Shown in pieces: positions 12,282-21,926 of a stretch of DNA of 34,809 nt (its first letter is position 1; the number at the start of each line of letters is the position of its first letter). Source of the DNA: Clostridiales bacterium (GTDB lineage Bacteria > Bacillota > Clostridia > Christensenellales > Aristaeellaceae); assembly GCA_012523405.1 (NCBI GenBank), contig JAAYIN010000106.1, positions 1 to 34,809 of the forward strand. The letters run 5' to 3'. The notes under the pieces are model-generated. The model was not told where the DNA came from, ran no database searches, and saw nothing but the letters and a program-made list of their open reading frames with translations. The translations under genes were made by a program, and so were the position numbers.

Positions 12282-14054
12282 CTACTTTCTTTCGTCTTCT
12301 AGTAGCTTTGCCCCTTCTTTACATACAAAATTTACATTTTGAGGTTCCATTTTTGCGACTACTATCACGCCTTCTTCGCAATGCTCTTGCGATACAATGC
12401 TTCCAAGTTCATGGATTTTGTTCAGTAGCCCATAATGACTAAAGGGAATCAAAAGCCTTGCTTGCTGCGTTCCCGAATCGATTTCCTCTTCAATTTTCAA
12501 AAGCAAAGCATCGATATTTTGACCCGTCACCGCACTCACTTTGATTGCACCTGACAAAAGGTCAGCTTCTTCTGTATATAAATCGCATTTATTGAGGGCA
12601 TCAATACGAGGCGATTCTGTAGCTTCCAGACTATCTAGAACTTCAAGCACCGTCTGGTGGCGCGATACAAGCTCTGGATCTGATCCATCCGATACAATCA
12701 CAAGCACATCTGCAAGCTTTGCTTCCTCCAGAGTCGCGCGAAACGCCTTTACCAAATCATGAGGCAGCTTTCTGATAAAGCCTACCGTATCGACAAGCAG
12801 CGCTTTTCCGCCATGCGGCAATGTGATAGGCCTGCTGACAGAGTCAAGTGTTGCAAAGAGCTGATCCATTACATAGACGTTTGAATCTGTCAAAAGGTTG
12901 AACAATGTCGATTTTCCAGCATTTGTATATCCGACAAGCGCTACGATCGGAATGCCATTCTTTTCGCGGTTCTGTCTGCGCAGGTTGCGTTGCTTGTTGA
13001 TCTGCTCAAGCTCGCGCCCAAGATCAGTCAGTCTTTCCCTGATGCGTCTGCGGTTCACCTCAAGCTTGCTCTCACCAGGTCCGCGTGTGCCGATTCCGCC
13101 TGCAAGACGGCTTAATACAAGTCCTTGTCCAAGCAGTCTTTGGCTTCTGTAATGCAATTGTGCCATTTCTACTTGAAGCTTACCCTCGCGAGTGTTCGCG
13201 CGGCCTGCGAAGATGTCCAAAATAAGAGCTGTTCTATCAACAACCTTTACACGCAGCATTTCTTCAAGGTTTTTTTGCATGACACCTGATAATTCTTCAT
13301 CAAAAATCACGAGATCAGCGTGCACTGCTTGGGCGCGTAAGGCTAATTCCTCAGCCTTTCCCTTGCCAATGCAATACGTGGTATCCATTTTTGATCGCTT
13401 TTGCATAATGCGCAAAACGGTTTCTGCTCCTGCCGTTTTCGCCAATTCTTCTAGTTCGTCAAGCGACTCCTCGCTCTCAATGCCAACAAGCACCGCTCTT
13501 TCGCCGTTTTTCTCCGCTTCTGGCTCCTTGGCTAAATACACCGTGTCCGTTTCTTCGATGATTTGAATCCATTCTGCTTGTGGAATTCTCTTTGCAGATA
13601 TAATTTCAGTTCTGCTCACTTGTCCTTGGTGCTCAGCATCAACAAATGCACATTGCGCAGTTGTCGGCTTGCCATTGTCATCTACGCCGATAGCGCACAT
13701 CGCATCAAAGCGCATGGTCAAAAGGGCACTGATGTCCACATCGCTTAGTTCTCCAGAGCCATTTGGATGCGTGTGGATGCAGCGAATCATCGACAGTCTG
13801 CGTTCACTGCGACGAAGCCTTAGGTCTGGCAAATCGATGCTGCTTGACTTACCGATAAATACATCTGCAATTTCTCCAAATCGGGTAATGTAAACCGCGA
13901 TTTCTCGATTCAATGACGCAGAATAGCCGCAGAGACCATCCATTAGGTCCTGCGGCACGAAAACATCAGGTTCGAGCTGAATATCGTATAACATGCTAAG
14001 CTCATCTAATGTTGTCTTTTTGATCCCCTCAATATTTCCATGAATTTCAGGCAT
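12282..14054 (-). CDS. hflX: GTPase HflX with an N-terminal JAMM/MPN-like domain
   Basis: Ribosome-associated GTPase that splits stalled 70S ribosomes. At 590 residues it is far longer than the usual 360-430. Residues about 190-365 are the HflX nucleotide-binding/glycine-rich domain (GGIGTRGPGESKLE, 319-332). The G domain follows: GYTNAGKS (375-382), DTVGF (422-426), NKCD (488-491). The extra N-terminus (1-160) carries HTHPNGSGELSDVD (94-107), which fits the JAMM metalloprotease signature HxH-x7-S-x2-D exactly, with Glu51 in NREIAVYI as candidate catalytic acid. The ATG at 14054 is preferred over the in-frame TTG at 14069, because AAAGGA precedes it. It follows nifU by 23 bases. HflX is certain; the enzyme activity of the extra domain is inference. 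Confidence 0.93.
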   Translation of the reverse strand: MPEIHGNIEGIKKTTLDELSMLYDIQLEPDVFVPQDLMDGLCGYSASLNREIAVYITRFGEIADVFIGKSSSIDLPDLRLRRSERRLSMIRCIHTHPNGSGELSDVDISALLTMRFDAMCAIGVDDNGKPTTAQCAFVDAEHQGQVSRTEIISAKRIPQAEWIQIIEETDTVYLAKEPEAEKNGERAVLVGIESEESLDELEELAKTAGAETVLRIMQKRSKMDTTYCIGKGKAEELALRAQAVHADLVIFDEELSGVMQKNLEEMLRVKVVDRTALILDIFAGRANTREGKLQVEMAQLHYRSQRLLGQGLVLSRLAGGIGTRGPGESKLEVNRRRIRERLTDLGRELEQINKQRNLRRQNREKNGIPIVALVGYTNAGKSTLFNLLTDSNVYVMDQLFATLDSVSRPITLPHGGKALLVDTVGFIRKLPHDLVKAFRATLEEAKLADVLVIVSDGSDPELVSRHQTVLEVLDSLEATESPRIDALNKCDLYTEEADLLSGAIKVSAVTGQNIDALLLKIEEEIDSGTQQARLLIPFSHYGLLNKIHELGSIVSQEHCEEGVIVVAKMEPQNVNFVCKEGAKLLEDERK

Positions 14055-14077
14055 ATGCCATCCTTTCAAGCATTCTA

Positions 14078-14446
14078 TTATTGATGCTTCTTTTGATAGT
14101 CTTCCACTGCCGCATGAATCGCTTGTTCAGCTAATAAAGAGCAGTGCATTTTGACTGGCGGCAAACCATCAAGTGCTTCTGCAACAGCAGTATTGGTTAG
14201 TTCCAATGCTTCTTTAACAGTTTTCCCTTTAACCATTTCAGTTGCCATGCTGCTGGTAGCGATAGCAGCGCAGCATCCGAAAGTTTTAAACTTCACATCA
14301 GTGATGACGTCGTCTTCCACTTGGATATCCATCTTCATGATATCACCGCATTTAGCGTTACCGACCGTGCCAGTTCCTGATGCATCGGCCAGCTCGCCCA
14401 CATTGCGCGGATTTTCAAAGTGCTCCATAACCTTTTCGCTATACAT
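14078..14446 (-). CDS. nifU: Fe-S cluster scaffold protein NifU/IscU
   Basis: Scaffold on which IscS sulphur and iron are assembled into a [2Fe-2S] cluster. The 122 residues hold the three cluster cysteines in family positions: Cys33 in NAKCGD with the modulating Asp35, Cys58 in TFGCCAA, and Cys102 in VKMHCSLL. The start has a strong AGGAGG. Third gene of the iscR-iscS-nifU operon, 48 bases after iscS. The later parts of a full isc operon (iscA, hscAB, fdx) are absent, as usual in Clostridia. Confidence 0.95.
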   Translation of the reverse strand: MYSEKVMEHFENPRNVGELADASGTGTVGNAKCGDIMKMDIQVEDDVITDVKFKTFGCCAAIATSSMATEMVKGKTVKEALELTNTAVAEALDGLPPVKMHCSLLAEQAIHAAVEDYQKKHQ

Positions 14447-14494
14447 ATTGAGTTTCCTCCTAATAACTTGTTACAATCTATACTAGATTGACGT

Positions 14495-15661
14495 TTATGC
14501 ATTCATTGCCAGCGGACTCATGGCTCTTAGACCTTCCACAACACCCTTGAGTTCACGAATCACTGTATCCACTTCTGCTTCTGTATTTTCCATGCTCAGC
14601 GATAGACGCAAGCTGCCATGAGCAATCTCATGAGGCAGTCCAATTGCCAAGAGTACATGCGATGGATCGAGGCTGCCGCTCGTACATGCCGAACCACTCG
14701 AACCCTCAATGCCCAGTAGATCAAGGCGCATTAGCAGCGCCTCGCCTTCGATGTAGCGAACAGCCACATTCACATTTCCGGGTAAACGCTTGGTTTGATG
14801 ACCGTTGAGCCTTACTTGCGGAATCTGCGACAATATGCCATCAATCAGGCGGTCACGCAAATGCTCCATCTTCTCCGTATATTGCGGCAGCTCAGACACA
14901 GCTAGTTCAATTGCCTTACCCAGTCCAACGATAGCGGGAAGATTCTCTGTACCCCCGCGCAAGCCGCGCTCTTGGGCACCGCCTAAGATTAGGTTCTCGA
15001 TTTTGACGCCTTTGCGAATGTAAAGTGCACCGATACCCTTTGGACCATGGAATTTATGACCTGAAAGGCTGAGCATATCCACGTTCCAGTCATTCACATC
15101 AACTGGTATTGCGCCGACTGCCTGCACTGCATCCGTGTGGAACAAAATACCCGCTTCCTTAGCAATCATGCCAATCTCGCGAATGGGTTCCAGCGTACCA
15201 ATTTCATTGTTTGCAGCCATGATGGTGATCAAAACCGTATCATCGCAAATCGCATTCTTGACATCAGCTGGGCTTAGAATTCCATATTCATCCACAGGTA
15301 GATACGTCACGCACCAACCTAGCTTCTCCATGTATTCACAGGTATGCAAAACCGCATGATGCTCAATAGAAGAAGTGATAATATGCTTCCCCTTTTTAAC
15401 ATTAGCCATCGCAGCGCAGCGAATCGCCCAATTATCGCTCTCGCTTCCGCCTGCCGTGAAATAGATTTCACGCGCCTCTGCGCCAATAGCTGCTGCGACT
15501 TGTCTTCTTGCGTTTTCAACCGCACGTCTGGCATCTCTTCCTACTTTATGAATCGAGCTGGGATTCCCAAATTGCTCTGTAAAGTATGGCAGCATCACGT
15601 CCGTAACTTCTGGCCTTGTTGCAGTGGTGGCTGCGTTATCCATATAAATAATCTTATTCAC
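14495..15661 (-). CDS. iscS: Cysteine desulfurase IscS/NifS
   Basis: PLP enzyme that converts cysteine to alanine and passes persulphide sulphur to NifU and other acceptors. 388 residues: MDNAATT near the start, HHAVLH (101-106) with the PLP-stacking histidine, HTDAVQAVG (175-183), the PLP lysine Lys203 in [11 protein letters not shown], and the persulphide cysteine Cys326 in [13 protein letters not shown] at 15661 is taken as start, because GAGGAAG lies about 7 bases before it; the longer frame would begin with a TTG at 15682 inside iscR. The GTG overlaps the iscR stop region by 8 bases. Confidence 0.95.
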
Positions 15662-16179: not shown

Positions 16180-17100
16180 TTATGATTCATCAAAAACAAC
16201 ACCGGAATGAACCGTTTCGGTCATTTTACAAGCGGGATAATCGTAGCGCATGTATTCCTGTGCCGATTGCGCATGCTGATAACTGCTAAAAACTCCATAG
16301 ACAACCGATCCGCTTCCTGTCATCATGGCACGGATAGCGCCCGCTTCTTTTAGCTTATCAATAGCCAACTTCATTTCATCACGGTATTGAAGGCTTGTCG
16401 GTTCAAGCACATTGCTCATAGCTTGTCCTAGGGCATCAAGGTCATTTTGTGCAAGCGCCGCTTGCGCTGCTGCATTATCTGGTCTGATGATTTGATTTTG
16501 TGGCATTGCATCAAACCCAGTGAATATCTCTTTTGTGCTCAAGCCATCACAAGGCTGTATCAGCAGCAACCATATGGTATTCGCTCTGGGCAATGGTGTA
16601 ATCACTTCGCCGATACCGCTCACTCGTGCTAATCCCCCGCCAATCATGAACGGAACATCCGCACCGACTGTTAGCCCGATTTTCTGCAGTTCATTCTCTG
16701 CTAGACCAAGATTCCATAATCGATTGAGACCCACAAGCGCAGCAGCTGCATCTGCGCTGCCGCCGCCCATACCAGCCCCCGATGGGATTTGCTTGCGCAA
16801 TATCATACGCGCACCTTTTTTAACACCGGTATAATCCAGCAGCTTGTTTGCCGCTTTGAAAACAAGGTTGTTTTGATCAAATGTGACTGTAGCGCTGCTC
16901 AAATGATCACCGCTCTCATTGAAACTGTTTGCTCCCTCGTCCTTTGGTTCAAGCGATAGCACGCCAGAATGATCTAGCCAAAGTGTATCGTGAAGTGCAA
17001 CTGACTGCATGAGCATATCCATCAAATGGTAACCATCGGGTCTAGTACCTAGTATGTCAAGCGTCCAATTAATCTTAGCCCTCGCCTTTAAGCAAAGCAT
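16180..17100 (-). CDS. ispE: 4-diphosphocytidyl-2-C-methyl-D-erythritol kinase IspE
   Basis: GHMP-superfamily kinase of the MEP (non-mevalonate) isoprenoid pathway; phosphorylates the 2-hydroxyl of CDP-methylerythritol with ATP. The 306 residues show KINWTLDILGTRPDGYH (9-25) with the catalytic-site lysine, the ATP loop PSGAGMGGGSADAAAAL (106-122), GADVPFMIGGG (146-156) with the catalytic aspartate, and MTGSGSVVYG near the C-terminus. The ATG at 17100 is used; the open frame extends 33 codons upstream, but that part covers the promoter and AAGGAAAGGGTG precedes the ATG. Monocistronic or read into the isc promoter region. Confidence 0.94.
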   Translation of the reverse strand: MLCLKARAKINWTLDILGTRPDGYHLMDMLMQSVALHDTLWLDHSGVLSLEPKDEGANSFNESGDHLSSATVTFDQNNLVFKAANKLLDYTGVKKGARMILRKQIPSGAGMGGGSADAAAALVGLNRLWNLGLAENELQKIGLTVGADVPFMIGGGLARVSGIGEVITPLPRANTIWLLLIQPCDGLSTKEIFTGFDAMPQNQIIRPDNAAAQAALAQNDLDALGQAMSNVLEPTSLQYRDEMKLAIDKLKEAGAIRAMMTGSGSVVYGVFSSYQHAQSAQEYMRYDYPACKMTETVHSGVVFDES

Positions 17101-17135
17101 TGCAACGCACCCTTTCCTTATGGTATAGTAGATAG

Positions 17136-17169
17136 TATTATAACAGGTTTTAACAAAACCGTTAAGGGG
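17136..17169 (-). promoter_or_regulatory. Promoter of ispE with a palindrome in the spacer
   Basis: On the minus strand a consensus TATAAT (rc of 17137-17142) lies 17 bases downstream of a weak -35, TTAACG. The spacer holds a perfect inverted repeat, GGTTTT-GTT-AAAACC (17146-17160), between the two RNA polymerase contacts and also upstream of the divergent gene at 17184. It may be an operator; no family can be assigned. Confidence 0.5.
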
Positions 17170-17183
17170 GGTGCACAACCTTC

Positions 17184-17624
17184 GTGAAAACACTACCAAT
17201 ACTGATTTCCATCAATTCAAGTGCCCACAGGGATGACGATAAAGACGAAGCTATCGCACTTTTAACATCAGGACTAATGACAATTAATGATGATAGTTAT
17301 TTGATTGCATACGAGGAGACATTGGATGAAAGCATGCCGCCTCAGCAAGTTGAAATCACCGTCACAAAGAATTCCGTCTCTATGATTCGCGGCGGCGCAT
17401 ACGAAACCAGCATGGTCTTCACAAAGGGTCAACGCTTTGAAGGACAGTATAGAACACCGTTTGGCGATATGGAGTTAGCGGTATATTGCACTCGATTGAA
17501 AAACGAACTGACCGCCGAGGGCGGGGATTTAATGTTTAGTTATCAACTGGATTTGAATGGCTACTTCGCTGCTATGCATGAGATGGAGCTAAAAATCACA
17601 CTACAAAATGAACATTCTGCATGA
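17184..17624 (+). CDS. DUF1934 (YwiB-like) beta-barrel protein
   Basis: 146 residues matching the DUF1934/YwiB pattern of small lipocalin-like beta-barrels: AIALLTSGLMTINDDSYLIAY, then a YEETLDE-type strand, VTKNSVSMIRGGAYETSMVF (about 57-76), and FGDMELAVYCTRL followed by the antiparallel SYQLDLNG strands near the C-terminus. Function is not known; in other Bacillota it often precedes argS, which is not present here. The start is GTG at 17184, about 12 bases after a GGGGGG stretch, so the ribosome site is loose. Divergent from ispE. It overlaps the next gene by 17 bases. Confidence 0.82.
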   Translation: MKTLPILISINSSAHRDDDKDEAIALLTSGLMTINDDSYLIAYEETLDESMPPQQVEITVTKNSVSMIRGGAYETSMVFTKGQRFEGQYRTPFGDMELAVYCTRLKNELTAEGGDLMFSYQLDLNGYFAAMHEMELKITLQNEHSA

Positions 17625-18138
17625 CGCCGGGCAGCTTGCCTTTCGATTATTAAGCGAAGAGAGTGAGCACCGTTTTTTTGTTCGGATTGCTTCGCAAAAC
17701 GACTGCTTATGGGTATGCGATCTTCCGCGTTTTTCGAAAAACACAGAGCAAATGGAAAGCATGCTTTTATCACATGGGATGATCTGCCAGCTAAACAGCC
17801 ATACAAAGCTATGGCATATTGACTGGACAGAGGATCAATACCAAAGAGCACTTAGCGATTTGCCAAGTGCCCTCCCCAAATTGCCGCAAAGCGAAGAACT
17901 TCACCCAGCATACGCGCTTTGCCGCTTGTTACTTCACGCTAAGCAAACAGCGGGAAAGCCGCTACCTATCGTTCGCAATGTATGGAAACTAAGCGAAGAT
18001 CGCCCATCCATCTTGCTAAAGGCGATCCCTCAACTTCATGCCCAATGTGCGCAGCTGCAAAGACTACACAAACCATTGCCCTACAGCGCAGGATGCATTC
18101 TTGCCATGTGGCTATATGAACAGGAGGCACAGCAATGA
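17608..18138 (+). CDS. Unrecognised 176-residue protein
   Basis: No family recognised. The protein is soluble, with no signal or membrane segment. The first half (MNILHDAGQLAFRLLSEESE, then alternating strands with FVRIAS and CLWVCDLPRF) looks alpha/beta. The second half is helical and rich in Leu, His and Gln (AYALCRLLLHAKQTAGK; LHAQCAQLQRLHKPLPYSAG). The ATG overlaps the DUF1934 gene by 17 bases without a clear ribosome site, pointing to coupled translation. Its stop overlaps the next start as ATGA. Tight packing between two conserved genes supports a real gene. A link to tRNA synthetase-type helical domains was considered but not supported. Confidence 0.72.
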   Translation: MNILHDAGQLAFRLLSEESEHRFFVRIASQNDCLWVCDLPRFSKNTEQMESMLLSHGMICQLNSHTKLWHIDWTEDQYQRALSDLPSALPKLPQSEELHPAYALCRLLLHAKQTAGKPLPIVRNVWKLSEDRPSILLKAIPQLHAQCAQLQRLHKPLPYSAGCILAMWLYEQEAQQ

Positions 18139-18782
18139 TCATCAGATATCAAGGCCATTCATTTTTTACGATTACAACCAAAGATGGAACCGTAATTGCT
18201 ACAGATCCCTATCATGATTTCTATAACTATCCGCAGCGCAACATCCATGCAGATATTTGTACAGTAAGCCACCATCATTCTGACCATGATGGTGTTCAGT
18301 CTATTGCTGGAACGCCTTTGGTAATCGATACGCTTGGCAATCACCCCACGCACTCTGGTGTACACATCATAGGCATCCCAACCAAACACGATGATGAGAA
18401 CGGAACACTTCGCGGAGACAATATATTTTTTGTTATTGAAGCGGATGGCATGCGTATTGGTCATGCTGGTGATCTGGGACATATGCTTACCAGCGAACAA
18501 CTAAAGAGCATCGGAGCGCTTGATGTGCTATTGCTTCCAGTAGGCGGCTATTACACCATTGATGCAAAAGTTGCCAACGATGTGCGCAATCATTTAAAGC
18601 CGCATATCACCATTCCGATGCACTATAAAACCGAGTATAACCCGGACATGCCCATAGCTTCTTTGGCTGAATGTCTATCCGGCATGAACGAAGATCCACA
18701 GCACATGCCTTTGCTTCGCATCGTACGTGAAGATTTGAAGGAACGCCCCAATATGATTGTTTTAATTCCCACACTGCCTTGA
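18135..18782 (+). CDS. Metallo-beta-lactamase-fold hydrolase (UPF0173-like)
   Basis: 215 residues of the MBL superfamily. The zinc motif HxHxDH is present as SHHHSDHDG (45-53; His46, His48, Asp50, His51). Downstream zinc-site elements follow: GHAGDLGHML (about 113-122), LLLPVGGYYTIDA (about 135-147), and PMHYKTE (about 160-166) with the last histidine. The pattern GYYTID...A...P...IPMHY is typical of UPF0173/YtkL metal-dependent hydrolases, whose substrate is unknown. AGGAGG lies just before the ATG, which overlaps the preceding stop. The pyrG promoter overlaps its own stop codon. Confidence 0.88.
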   Translation: MIIRYQGHSFFTITTKDGTVIATDPYHDFYNYPQRNIHADICTVSHHHSDHDGVQSIAGTPLVIDTLGNHPTHSGVHIIGIPTKHDDENGTLRGDNIFFVIEADGMRIGHAGDLGHMLTSEQLKSIGALDVLLLPVGGYYTIDAKVANDVRNHLKPHITIPMHYKTEYNPDMPIASLAECLSGMNEDPQHMPLLRIVREDLKERPNMIVLIPTLP

Positions 18783-18807
18783 CAACTGCTTATCACAACT
18801 GTAAAAT
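18779..18807 (+). promoter_or_regulatory. Near-consensus promoter for pyrG
   Basis: Perfect TTGACA (18779-18784), 17-base spacer, TAAAAT (18802-18807), beginning inside the stop of the MBL gene. The likely start point is not a run of G and no attenuator hairpin is seen in the short leader. The reiterative-G attenuation known from Bacillus pyrG is therefore not apparent. Confidence 0.75.
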
Positions 18808-18847
18808 CAGTCAGTACAAACATTGTATCAAAAGGAGCCGATCACTC

Positions 18848-20440
18848 ATGAAATACGTATTTATCACAGGTGGCGTCACCTCATCGCTAGGAAAAGGCGT
18901 AACCGCTGCAGCCCTTGCACTTTTGCTCAAAGCACGCGGATATTCCGTTGGCATGCAAAAGCTAGACCTATATTATAATGCCGAGCCTGGCTTTCTAAGC
19001 CCGCTAGAGCATGGTGAAGCCTTTATTACAGATGACGGTACTGCTACAGATCTTGATCTTGGGCATTATGAACGCTTTGGCGGTCTTACTATGAAGGGCA
19101 ACGCATGTTGCAGCACAGGCAAGATTCATCGTCGTTTGCTTGAGCGCGAAATGCGCGGCGAATTCCGTGGTTCTACCATCCAAGCCATCCCGCATATCAC
19201 CAACGAAATCAAGCACAACATACGTACTGTTGCAGCCGAGACAGGTGCAGATATTTGCATTGTTGAAATAGGCGGTACAGTCGGCGATATGGAAGCTTCC
19301 GTATATCTTGAAGCGATTCGCCAAATGCGCCTTGAGTCGGAGCATCCCTATGACTGCTGCTATATTCATCTAACCCTTATGCCCTATATCGCAACCGCTG
19401 GCGAACTAAAGACCAAGCCCACCCAAAACAGCGTAAAAGCACTGCGCTCTGTCGGTATTCAGCCAGATATTATCGTATGCCGTACAGAAGTACCTATGTC
19501 CAACGAAGCCAAGGATAAGATCGCACTGTTTTGCAATGTAAAAACAAGCAATGTCATTCAAAACTTGGACGTTGATATGCTCTACGAACTGCCTTTGGTT
19601 CTGGAAAAGGAAGGTCTTGCAAAGGTTCTTGTCAATGAACTGCACCTGCAGGACACCCCGCCCGATCTCACCGATTGGAGAAAATTTGTTAAACGTGCAC
19701 ATGAAGTTACCATTCCGCTGCGTGTTGCTTTGGTTGGTAAATATAATACAGTGCCTGATGCTTATCTATCTGTCAACGAAGCATTACGCCACGCCGGTTT
19801 GGCGAATGATGCCCGCGTATCCATTTCTCCAATTCATGCGGAGGAAATCACGGAAGAGAACATCGACAAGATGCTTAGCGGCTATGACGCCATCATTGTT
19901 CCCGGTGGTTTTGGCGATCGCGGCACAGACGGCATGATCATTGCAACCAGATTCGCCCGCGAAAATAAAATTCCATACCTAGCTATAGGCTTTGGCATGC
20001 AGCTGACAGTTGTTGAAGCTGCAAGAAATCTGCTTGGTATTGCAGATGCACATACAACAGAAGCTGATCCTCAAACCCAGTCCCCTGTTGTCCGCATCCC
20101 TGAGGATCGCATCTGTCAAAACGACAGCCGCGGTGCAACTCGCATGGGTCGCAGCGGAGTCAAGCTCACAGCTGGTCTTGTCCGTGATATTTACGGCGAA
20201 GATGTGATTCAAGAGCGTCACAGCAACCGTTATGAAATCGATCCTGCCTATGTTCCTCAGCTTGAGGAGCAAGGACTTCATATGGTCGGCATCAGCACAG
20301 AAGCCGGTTATCCTGAAGTGTTTGAGCTGAGAGATCATCCGTTCTTTGTGGCGGTTGTCTATCATCCCGAATTCTTGAGCCGTCCCAATAAGCCTCATCC
20401 GCTTTTTGAAGCGTTTGTGAAGGCGGGTCTGAAAAAATAA
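18848..20440 (+). CDS. pyrG: Divergent CTP synthase with a missing glutaminase cysteine
   Basis: CTP synthase aminates UTP using ATP and ammonia released from glutamine. At 530 residues it is of usual length. The synthetase half keeps the P-loop SSLGKG (12-17), TDLDLGHYERF (67-77), VEIGGTVGD (139-147) and KTKPTQNSVK (188-197). It departs from the norm at KLDLYYNAEPGFLSP (usual KLDPY-NVDPGTMSP). In the class-I amidotransferase half, VPGGFG (351-356) and the His506/Glu508 pair of YHPEF remain, but the nucleophile motif GICLGMQ reads AIGFGMQ: Cys to Gly at residue 381 (codon GGC, 19988-19990). Glutamine hydrolysis should be lost, leaving ammonia-dependent or non-CTP activity. ATG 18848 follows AAAGGAG; the frame extends further up but without support. 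Confidence 0.9.
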   Translation: MKYVFITGGVTSSLGKGVTAAALALLLKARGYSVGMQKLDLYYNAEPGFLSPLEHGEAFITDDGTATDLDLGHYERFGGLTMKGNACCSTGKIHRRLLEREMRGEFRGSTIQAIPHITNEIKHNIRTVAAETGADICIVEIGGTVGDMEASVYLEAIRQMRLESEHPYDCCYIHLTLMPYIATAGELKTKPTQNSVKALRSVGIQPDIIVCRTEVPMSNEAKDKIALFCNVKTSNVIQNLDVDMLYELPLVLEKEGLAKVLVNELHLQDTPPDLTDWRKFVKRAHEVTIPLRVALVGKYNTVPDAYLSVNEALRHAGLANDARVSISPIHAEEITEENIDKMLSGYDAIIVPGGFGDRGTDGMIIATRFARENKIPYLAIGFGMQLTVVEAARNLLGIADAHTTEADPQTQSPVVRIPEDRICQNDSRGATRMGRSGVKLTAGLVRDIYGEDVIQERHSNRYEIDPAYVPQLEEQGLHMVGISTEAGYPEVFELRDHPFFVAVVYHPEFLSRPNKPHPLFEAFVKAGLKK

Positions 20441-20450
20441 TAGATGATCA

Positions 20451-20490
20451 AAAACCCGATGAGCGATTATGCACATCGGGTTTTGTTTTA
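20451..20490. terminator. Bidirectional terminator between pyrG and rmuC
   Basis: An 11-bp perfect stem (20451-20461 with 20474-20484) around a 12-base loop, followed by GTTTTAT on the plus strand and by five Ts on the minus strand. It lies between convergent genes. Confidence 0.88.
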
Positions 20491-20516
20491 TGATATTGAT
20501 ATCAACCAGAGAATTT

Positions 20517-21926
20517 TTATTCGTCTGCATCATGCAAAAGCTGCTGTGTTTCTGTTGCATCAAGTGCTTCGACCCTACGCAGCTTTTTTTCTATGCTTCG
20601 CGTACGAACGAATGCAGTGTCAATGCTATTGCTTGCCTGTTGGATTTTCTCTTGGGTTTTTTGGAGCACCGTCGCAAAGCTTCCAAAATCGGCTTTAACA
20701 GCTCCAAGCAGCTTCCAGACCTCTGCGGAGCGCTGTTCTATGGCAAGCGTTCTAAAGCCCATCTGAAGGCTGTTAAGAAGTGCGAGAAGCGTGCTTGGAC
20801 CCGAAATCAAAATTCGCTGTTCACGCTGAATTTGTTCCACAACCTCAGCATGCCGCATCACCTCTGCATATAGTCCTTCAAGTGGCAGGAACATCACCGC
20901 AAAATCAGTTGTATGCGGAGGTGCGATATACTTGCCAATGCGCTTTGCTTCAACCTTCACCGCGTTGAGCAATGCGCGCTGCGCTGCCTCAATCGCTTGT
21001 ACATCTCCTTCGTTTGATGCATCTGCCAGCCTGACATAGTCTTCCTGCGGAAATTTGCTATCAATCGGTAAGTAGATCGCATGATCGTCCTCGCGGCCAG
21101 GCAAGCAAACTGCAAACTCAACTCGTTCACTAGACCCAGGGACCACAGCAACATTTCGTGCATACTGCGTGGAAGTTAACGCTTCTTCCAGCAATGCACC
21201 AAGCTGCATCTCGCCCCATATGCCGCGCGTTTTTACATTGCCCAGCATTCGCTTTAGATCGCCCACGCCCGTTGTCAGGCTCTGCATCTCGCCAAGCGAT
21301 TTATAAACCTGCTCAAGGCGTGTGCTTACCTGTGCAAAGCTATCATTGAGTCGCTTCTCCAGCGAATTATGAAGTTTTTCATCAACGGTTTTTCGCATTT
21401 CTTCAAGTTTTTGCCCATTTTCCGTTCGAAGCAGCTGCATGCCTTCCTCCAGCGTCTTGCGCAGCGCTTCCATACGCGCTTCGTTTTGAGAAAGCAGCCT
21501 AGCCGTACCAGCTTCTATGCTCTGCATTCTAGCTTCGATCCTTGTAAGGCTCTCCTCTGTAATGCGCTGCATACCCTGCTGCCTAGCATCCGATGCCTGA
21601 GAGCTATCATAGCTTTGCTTGAGAAGTGAGTTGACCTGATCGGCTTGTGATTTGGTTATGCTATGCATCATATTAAGCAAGCTATCATTTAATCGCTGCA
21701 AAGAGTGCAGCAATTCCTCACGCTGCTCTAGGCTCTGCCGTAGCAGCTCATTCTCCGTTCTTTCAAGCGTCTCATTAACCTCATCATTTTGCAATGCTAT
21801 CGCATCAAGCGTCATACGCCTCTGCCTTAGCACAACAACGAGAATGATGATCAAAAGCAAAAGAATCATCGCTAGGATTCCAGCCGTCACAAGCTGTAGT
21901 AAATTGGTATCAGTAAATAAAGGCAC
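20517..21926 (-). CDS. rmuC: DNA recombination protein RmuC
   Basis: RmuC family: membrane-anchored coiled-coil protein with a PD-(D/E)XK-type nuclease-like core that limits recombination at inverted repeats. An N-terminal membrane segment (about 12-33, ILAMILLLLIIILVVVL) is followed by a long coiled coil (about 40-220). The conserved core reads VKTRGIWGEMQLGALLEE, PIDSKFPQEDYVRL, FLPLEGLYAEVM and GPSTLLALLNSLQMGFRTLAI. GTG at 21926 is proposed as start because GGAAGG precedes it. A longer frame to 22022 would run into recR and through its terminator-like hairpin. About 469 residues. Last gene of the DUF4097-ybaB-recR group. Confidence 0.9.
   Translation of the reverse strand: MPLFTDTNLLQLVTAGILAMILLLLIIILVVVLRQRRMTLDAIALQNDEVNETLERTENELLRQSLEQREELLHSLQRLNDSLLNMMHSITKSQADQVNSLLKQSYDSSQASDARQQGMQRITEESLTRIEARMQSIEAGTARLLSQNEARMEALRKTLEEGMQLLRTENGQKLEEMRKTVDEKLHNSLEKRLNDSFAQVSTRLEQVYKSLGEMQSLTTGVGDLKRMLGNVKTRGIWGEMQLGALLEEALTSTQYARNVAVVPGSSERVEFAVCLPGREDDHAIYLPIDSKFPQEDYVRLADASNEGDVQAIEAAQRALLNAVKVEAKRIGKYIAPPHTTDFAVMFLPLEGLYAEVMRHAEVVEQIQREQRILISGPSTLLALLNSLQMGFRTLAIEQRSAEVWKLLGAVKADFGSFATVLQKTQEKIQQASNSIDTAFVRTRSIEKKLRRVEALDATETQQLLHDADE

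Follow-up and report, generated by a model that had tools for sequence, protein, structure and literature searches.

CTP synthase (PyrG) is usually described as a glutamine amidotransferase that is activated by GTP. In the accessible parts of one account of the E. coli enzyme, E68, R468 and R470 contact the GTP purine in a modelled complex, L109 belongs to the coupling loop (L4) and acts on the adjacent subunit, and the entrance for exogenous NH3 is held to be plugged by GTP (PMC9138612). The same parts report that the L109A and R429A variants (also D107A) keep NH3-dependent activity as their glutamine-dependent CTP formation falls, and that G352P has zero activity with glutamine and nearly full activity with NH4Cl (PMC9138612). 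CTP synthase blocked with DON still uses NH4+, according to the portion available of a second paper (PMC11211670). Carbamoyl phosphate synthetase I has Ser in place of the Cys nucleophile and draws its ammonia from solution; there, too, the residue that follows the nucleophile position matters (PMC4655335, available in part). Natural CTP synthases without the nucleophile were unreported in the open-access literature searched, which consisted mostly of titles and the openings of abstracts.

The window, the whole stretch of 34,809 nucleotides analysed here, carries a full-length pyrG paralogue in which the codon for the catalytic Cys encodes Gly. Features referred to below are as follows, with residue roles taken from the accessible parts of PMC9138612.

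17184-17624, forward strand: DUF1934 gene, upstream
17608-18138, forward strand: gene for a 176-residue protein, no Pfam match
18135-18782, forward strand: metallo-beta-lactamase-fold hydrolase gene (PF13483), directly upstream of the pyrG paralogue
18779-18807, forward strand: sigma-70-like promoter, TTGACA-17-TAAAAT, by consensus match only
18830-18837, forward strand: ribosome-binding-site-like AAAAGGAG, found by eye
18848-20440, forward strand: pyrG paralogue, 530 residues; synthase domain intact, GATase domain without nucleophile
19019-19021, forward strand: Ala58, replacing V60 at the gate of the ammonia tunnel, by alignment
19043-19045, forward strand: Ala66, replacing E68 of the GTP cleft, by alignment
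19166-19168, forward strand: Arg107, replacing L109 of the L4 loop, by alignment
19988-19990, forward strand: Gly381, codon GGC, replacing the catalytic Cys (E. coli C379), by codon and alignment
19991-19993, forward strand: Phe382 (E. coli L380), by alignment
20222-20227, forward strand: Ser459-Asn460, replacing R468-H469 (R468 in the GTP cleft), by alignment
20363-20371, forward strand: His506 and Glu508 of the catalytic triad, both kept (E. coli His515 and Glu517), by alignment

The frame runs from the ATG at 18848 to the stop at 20440. Pfam placed a CTP_synth_N domain ahead of a class I GATase domain, well above curated cut-offs, and the protein also scored well above the cut-offs of NCBIfam PRK05380 and TIGR00337. 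An AlphaFold model (pLDDT 90.5, pTM 0.89; loop 47-55, beside the tunnel gate, poorly predicted) has the CTP synthase fold, its best PDB match being 1vco, the Thermus CTP synthase with glutamine (TM 0.95). The nucleophile motif reads LAIGFGMQ. The initial annotation had described a CTP synthase with Gly381 in place of the Cys and with His506 and Glu508 of the triad still present; the codon, the profiles and the alignment confirmed the first point and the alignment the second. It had also held that both neighbours of the Cys were altered, which is right for the following residue (Leu to Phe382) and wrong for the preceding Ile380, which is unaltered; a further change, Gly to Ala, lies one step upstream of Ile380. 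Judged by its sequence the protein is a PyrG by descent, yet because of the Cys to Gly381 change it lacks the Cys-His-Glu triad required of a glutamine-hydrolysing CTP synthase (TIGR00337, taken functionally). Within the GTP-activation cleft set (E68, L109, R356, R468, R470) it has E68A, L109R and R468S, with R356 and R470 kept. Because the nucleophile is lost, glutaminase activity would not be expected, as the annotation had proposed, and the changes in the GTP cleft reinforce this expectation.

The codon is seen here on one contig of one assembly, which would suit an assembly or sequencing error at this single codon. A search of 60 genomes (that of the window plus 59 relatives; not every matched PyrG was read) gave a Gly copy of the same kind in nine relatives, five from the genus and four from the wider family, as well as a tenth (G058, locus L027) on a separate tree branch. 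The pattern L[AMG]IG[FY]GMQ, scanned against 84,980 named species genomes, returned 37 loci, five of them from congeners of the window (G003, G005, G010, G012, G015). PyrG with Gly accounted for 36, three of these partial; the other locus, L090, matched through a neighbouring gene, its own PyrG having the Cys. With a stricter DNA pattern for the motif, at least three of 396 genomes in the window's order were positive, the window included, a lower bound because the pattern misses known members such as G023. Viral contigs scanned with the window protein gave no match.

A quick maximum-likelihood tree of 78 rows, with the motif columns omitted, placed 23 Gly sequences in one clade (support 100); they come from the same genus as the window, from the same family and from other Bacillota. 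The partial sequences L069, L081, L085 and L219, duplicates from the same locus and all but nine of the archaeal Cys relatives were left out of the residue table and the trees. Whether the motif is fixed in a clade had been suggested as a check, and IG[FY]G was found in 23/23 rows. Given Gly in 23 different full-length sequences, from assemblies of several projects and with coordinated changes elsewhere in the protein, a sequencing error at 19988-19990 is refuted by the relatives, and we regard its probability as negligible.

Residues were compared in an alignment of 100 rows (23 from the clade, 21 other non-Cys rows and 56 Cys rows), with roles taken from the accessible parts of PMC8325340 and PMC9138612. 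The UTP, ATP and metal positions (E. coli 14, 18, 40, 72, 114, 143, 147, 149, 187-189, 192, 211, 223, 227 and 303) are kept in 23/23 clade rows, among them K18, K40, D72, D147, E149, K187, T188, K189, K223 and F227. D42, E140 and T144 are each kept in 22/23, and the UTP-contacting H57 in 19/23, with Arg in the other four. The positions that couple glutamine and GTP (68, 109, 379, 380, 468 and 469) are changed in every clade row, and in at most 9/56 Cys rows at any one position. E68 became Ala or Pro (changed in 0/56 Cys rows), L109 a basic residue, His, Arg or Lys (non-Leu in 9/56), L380 became Phe or Tyr (Leu in 55/56), R468 was lost (0/56) and H469 became Asn (changed in 1/56). At the tunnel gate V60 is Ala or Ser in 21/23 clade rows and non-Val in two of the 56 Cys rows, both Ile; the accessible parts of the papers gave nothing on what V60A does to NH3 use. 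Since E68 and R468 are retained in all 21 of the other non-Cys rows, only the clade has rebuilt its GTP cleft in this way.

The clade also has changes near the uracil-contacting Asp42, namely I45Y in 23/23 rows and P43L in the window's genus, G029 and L055. These would suit an enzyme that aminates another nucleotide or uses another amine, the second of three roles that the initial annotation had offered. The named UTP and ATP contacts are unaltered in nearly all rows, and no obvious biosynthetic cluster was seen by eye among the neighbours of the window gene, both of which weaken this role, and we consider it improbable.

The GATase domain retains R470, Q383 and the triad His and Glu in 23/23 clade rows and E403 in 22/23. 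Given that Q383, E403 and R470, which we take to be the residues gripping glutamine, are retained, the pocket may still bind some ligand. A more speculative extension is that the domain was converted rather than merely broken, into a sensor that responds to glutamine, or to some other effector, without hydrolysing it, and that would gate CTP synthesis from ammonia, either by itself or in mixed tetramers with the ordinary enzyme. The retained Q383, E403, R470, His and Glu, the absent nucleophile and the rebuilt GTP cleft (E68A/P, basic 109, R468 lost, H469N) suggest it, and we put it forward as rather unlikely.

Loss of the nucleophile was also found outside the clade. In a Methanimicrococcus group C379G, G352A, H467F, H469N and E517Q occur together in 5/5 full-length sequences, four titled Methanimicrococcus and one 'Methanosarcinales archaeon', and 24 other genomes drawn around M. 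blatticola all have the Cys. Only one PyrG is present in each of the 30 genomes of this set, to which M. blatticola DSM 13328 belongs; that of G083 is split over two contigs. The open-access literature, of which mostly titles and abstract openings were covered, held nothing on CTP synthase in Methanimicrococcus and nothing useful on its nitrogen source.

A non-Cys nucleophile pattern was scanned against 398 genomes of the phylum, the window's included, and gave ten matches besides the window. Two (L196, L197) were not PyrG and were dropped; the eight PyrG comprise five Gly, four from one family (f123), and three Ser. As the pattern covers only part of the codons and neighbouring residues, 8 of the 397 other genomes is a minimum. 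In six of the eight genomes, including the one-contig, 99% complete G745, no PyrG besides the variant was found; G601 and G809, both Ser, have a second PyrG with Cys. Relatives of f123 in two sister genera (G785, G820, G634) have Cys. Among genomes in which a Gly variant is the only PyrG found are M. blatticola (G077) and its relatives, a Fibrimonadaceae genome (G072), G745 and others.

On a combined tree 11 changes are needed to account for the Cys/non-Cys label, at least six of them on well supported (starred) branches, several long branches making the exact number unsure. Covariation of Cys loss with loss of L4-loop residues over six independent pairs on starred branches was not significant (median p 0.375 for L109, 0.25 for R105 and 0.25 for D107). 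Gly predominates among the non-Cys rows, but most Gly rows came from a pattern that demanded Gly, and the less biased phylum scan gave five Gly against three Ser. As general background, a strained nucleophile elbow may favour Gly in such folds.

Two small Clostridia assemblies (L062 and L066, from sheep colon and goat cecum by title) have a non-Cys copy as the only PyrG found, and this copy has lost T188, K189, E155, K223 and F227 of the synthase in addition to the Cys. Because these synthase residues are gone, activity should not be assumed from the two sequences. The gene that brought L090 into the scan (LFRQ01000106.1, Clostridia bacterium DTU022, 12975-14555) encodes a GMP synthase (GuaA) with the Gly nucleophile motif LGIGYGMQ, about 4.5 kb from a normal pyrG, and the same loss may thus have occurred in another class I amidotransferase.

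The three roles proposed in the initial annotation were an ammonia-only CTP synthase, another amidation and a regulatory partner of a normal copy. The first is best supported, because the substrate residues are kept and because independent non-Cys variants stand as the sole PyrG found. We judge, with a probability of about 0.6, that the window gene encodes a CTP synthase isoenzyme for which free ammonia is the source of the amino group added to UTP. ATP would phosphorylate UTP in the synthase domain as usual; NH3 would come not from glutamine but through the port at the GTP cleft that GTP normally plugs, and would then cross the gate at which Val60 is Ala. Such an enzyme would run free of glutamine and GTP control, beside an ordinary glutamine-dependent copy.

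An ordinary copy is present. The annotation had suggested looking in the full genome for a second pyrG with GICLGMQ, and one was found (contig C7, 93981-95567), its product 48% identical to the window protein, which makes the window gene a paralogue. A second PyrG match occurs in 21 of the 24 examined genomes having a clade member. Of these second copies 18 were read, all but those of G003 and G015 and the fragment in G065, and every one of the 18 has the Cys. The three genomes showing no second PyrG are G010 (95% complete), G061 and G086, the last apparently the same as G291 (94% complete). Over 17 genomes of the genus, the window's included, both copies are present in five, only the Gly copy in one, only the ordinary copy in two and neither in nine; the two copies are associated (Fisher's exact test p = 0.035, uncorrected for kinship).

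This co-occurrence suits a regulatory or structural partner that co-assembles with ordinary PyrG in mixed tetramers or filaments and tunes it, for example through an altered L4 loop that may reach over the GTP cleft of the neighbouring subunit. The reported action of residue 109 on the adjacent subunit (PMC9138612, accessible parts) and the continued constraint on the GATase domain also favour such a partner. A mere scaffold would not need the synthase catalytic residues, almost all of which are retained; three clade genomes lack a visible second copy, and independent Gly variants stand alone in their genomes. A partner role is possible, and we see it as a serious but minority reading.

Synonymous sites are mostly saturated, and only two Gly pairs had dS below 2; their dN/dS values are 0.21 (L005/L007) and 0.07 (L067/L077), far below 1. 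The gene of the Gly clade is under purifying selection. Across 55 pairs from 11 genomes, mean identity for the Gly copy is 71% in the synthase and 55% in the GATase domain, compared with 85% and 74% for the Cys copy, so the Gly copy is the faster-evolving one in both domains. Divergence of the GATase domain relative to the synthase domain is 1.67 for the Gly copy and 1.85 for the Cys copy; since this ratio is not raised, the GATase domain is not simply decaying.

The annotation had mentioned a near-consensus promoter in front of the gene, and one exists at 18779-18807, overlapping the stop of the hydrolase gene; it matches the consensus at 11/12 positions and is the top of eight sites within 17100-20600 (shuffled sequence gave a mean of 6.1 sites). 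Four congeners (G001, G002, G006, G011) have the hydrolase gene abutting rmuC with no pyrG between them, at an otherwise matching locus, so the paralogue is not universal in the genus. Because of these four and of the second PyrG in 21/24 clade genomes, the gene is dispensable. The surroundings of ordinary pyrG were checked in eight relatives, and in one (G055, L156) a Cys pyrG lies directly behind DUF1934 and the hydrolase gene; this single, thin example suggests that the window gene may stand where a pyrG already stood in the past. The 176-residue protein recurs between the DUF1934 and hydrolase genes in congeners. Elsewhere in the window, three VanY-type D-alanyl-D-alanine carboxypeptidase genes (PF02557; 7629-8828, 10626-11543 and 11540-12241) flank on both sides a pair named parA/parB-like by eye.

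The faster evolution of the Gly copy and its absence from the four congeners could indicate a duplicate decaying towards loss. With the reading frame open in 23/23 rows, dN/dS far below 1 in both unsaturated pairs and catalytic residues fixed across a clade of several genera, we think this very unlikely. Counted against the ammonia-using isoenzyme itself are the lack of faster decay in the GATase domain, the retained glutamine-site residues, Arg at H57 in four of the 23 rows and the dispensability of the gene.

No CTP synthase scoring over the family cut-off was found in 20 of the 59 relatives in the order, with weak GATase-only matches in four. Congeners lacking it are G001, G002, G006, G008, G009, G011, G014 and G016. 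In a test of this set, which also covered G010, rpoB was found in 18 of the 20 genomes, among them every one of the 13 with a completeness of 90% or more. A degenerate DNA pattern for the synthase motif was absent from 15/15 pyrG-less genomes tested and present in 7/7 others; no runs of N occurred in 12 stretches surrounding the hydrolase gene, two of them from the controls G007 and G013, and the pyrG search found a match in 30/30 genomes around M. blatticola. These controls rule out a search fault or masking as the sole cause. When the missing gene was sought through the neighbour of the G007 copy, the other genomes yielded only paralogues of that neighbour, 23-43% identical. The open-access literature, as far as covered by titles and abstract openings, likewise held no report of pyrG absence of this kind. 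These lineages may rely on imported cytidine or on an unknown CTP route.

Should the ammonia-using isoenzyme be borne out, natural lineages without the nucleophile, some of them with no other copy found, would demonstrate that a cell can live on CTP made from ammonia, and the variants would offer a way to test which residues act only in glutamine and GTP coupling and which in ammonia entry. Because the window protein and three other tested variants pass the cut-off, a profile score is not a safe basis for annotating a protein as 'glutamine hydrolyzing CTP synthase'.

Compared with glutamine-hydrolysing PyrG (TIGR00337/PRK05380), the window protein is alike in domain order, fold, synthase site, length and the triad His and Glu, and differs in lacking the Cys nucleophile and in its altered GTP cleft and L4 loop. 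PRK06186, the CTP synthase C-terminal region-related (seleno)protein, is a relative of the PyrG GATase domain whose model is limited to the C-terminal part; the window protein has both domains in full and scores 137 bits against that family's cut-off of 260. E. coli L109A, R429A and G352P and the DON-inactivated enzyme, with glutamine use impaired or lost and NH3 use kept (PMC9138612 and PMC11211670, accessible parts), are laboratory variants, whereas the window protein belongs to a natural lineage. Pfam found no carbamoyl phosphate synthetase domains in it, and likeness to carbamoyl phosphate synthetase I is an analogy of working only. The mammalian enzyme differs in its unrelated synthetase part and product, in having Ser rather than Gly, and in its activator N-acetylglutamate, for which no counterpart is known in the window protein. 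By that analogy, carbamoyl phosphate synthetase I is nonetheless the closest parallel in working: it keeps a GATase-like domain without the Cys, uses free ammonia, as the window protein would, and stands beside carbamoyl phosphate synthetase II.
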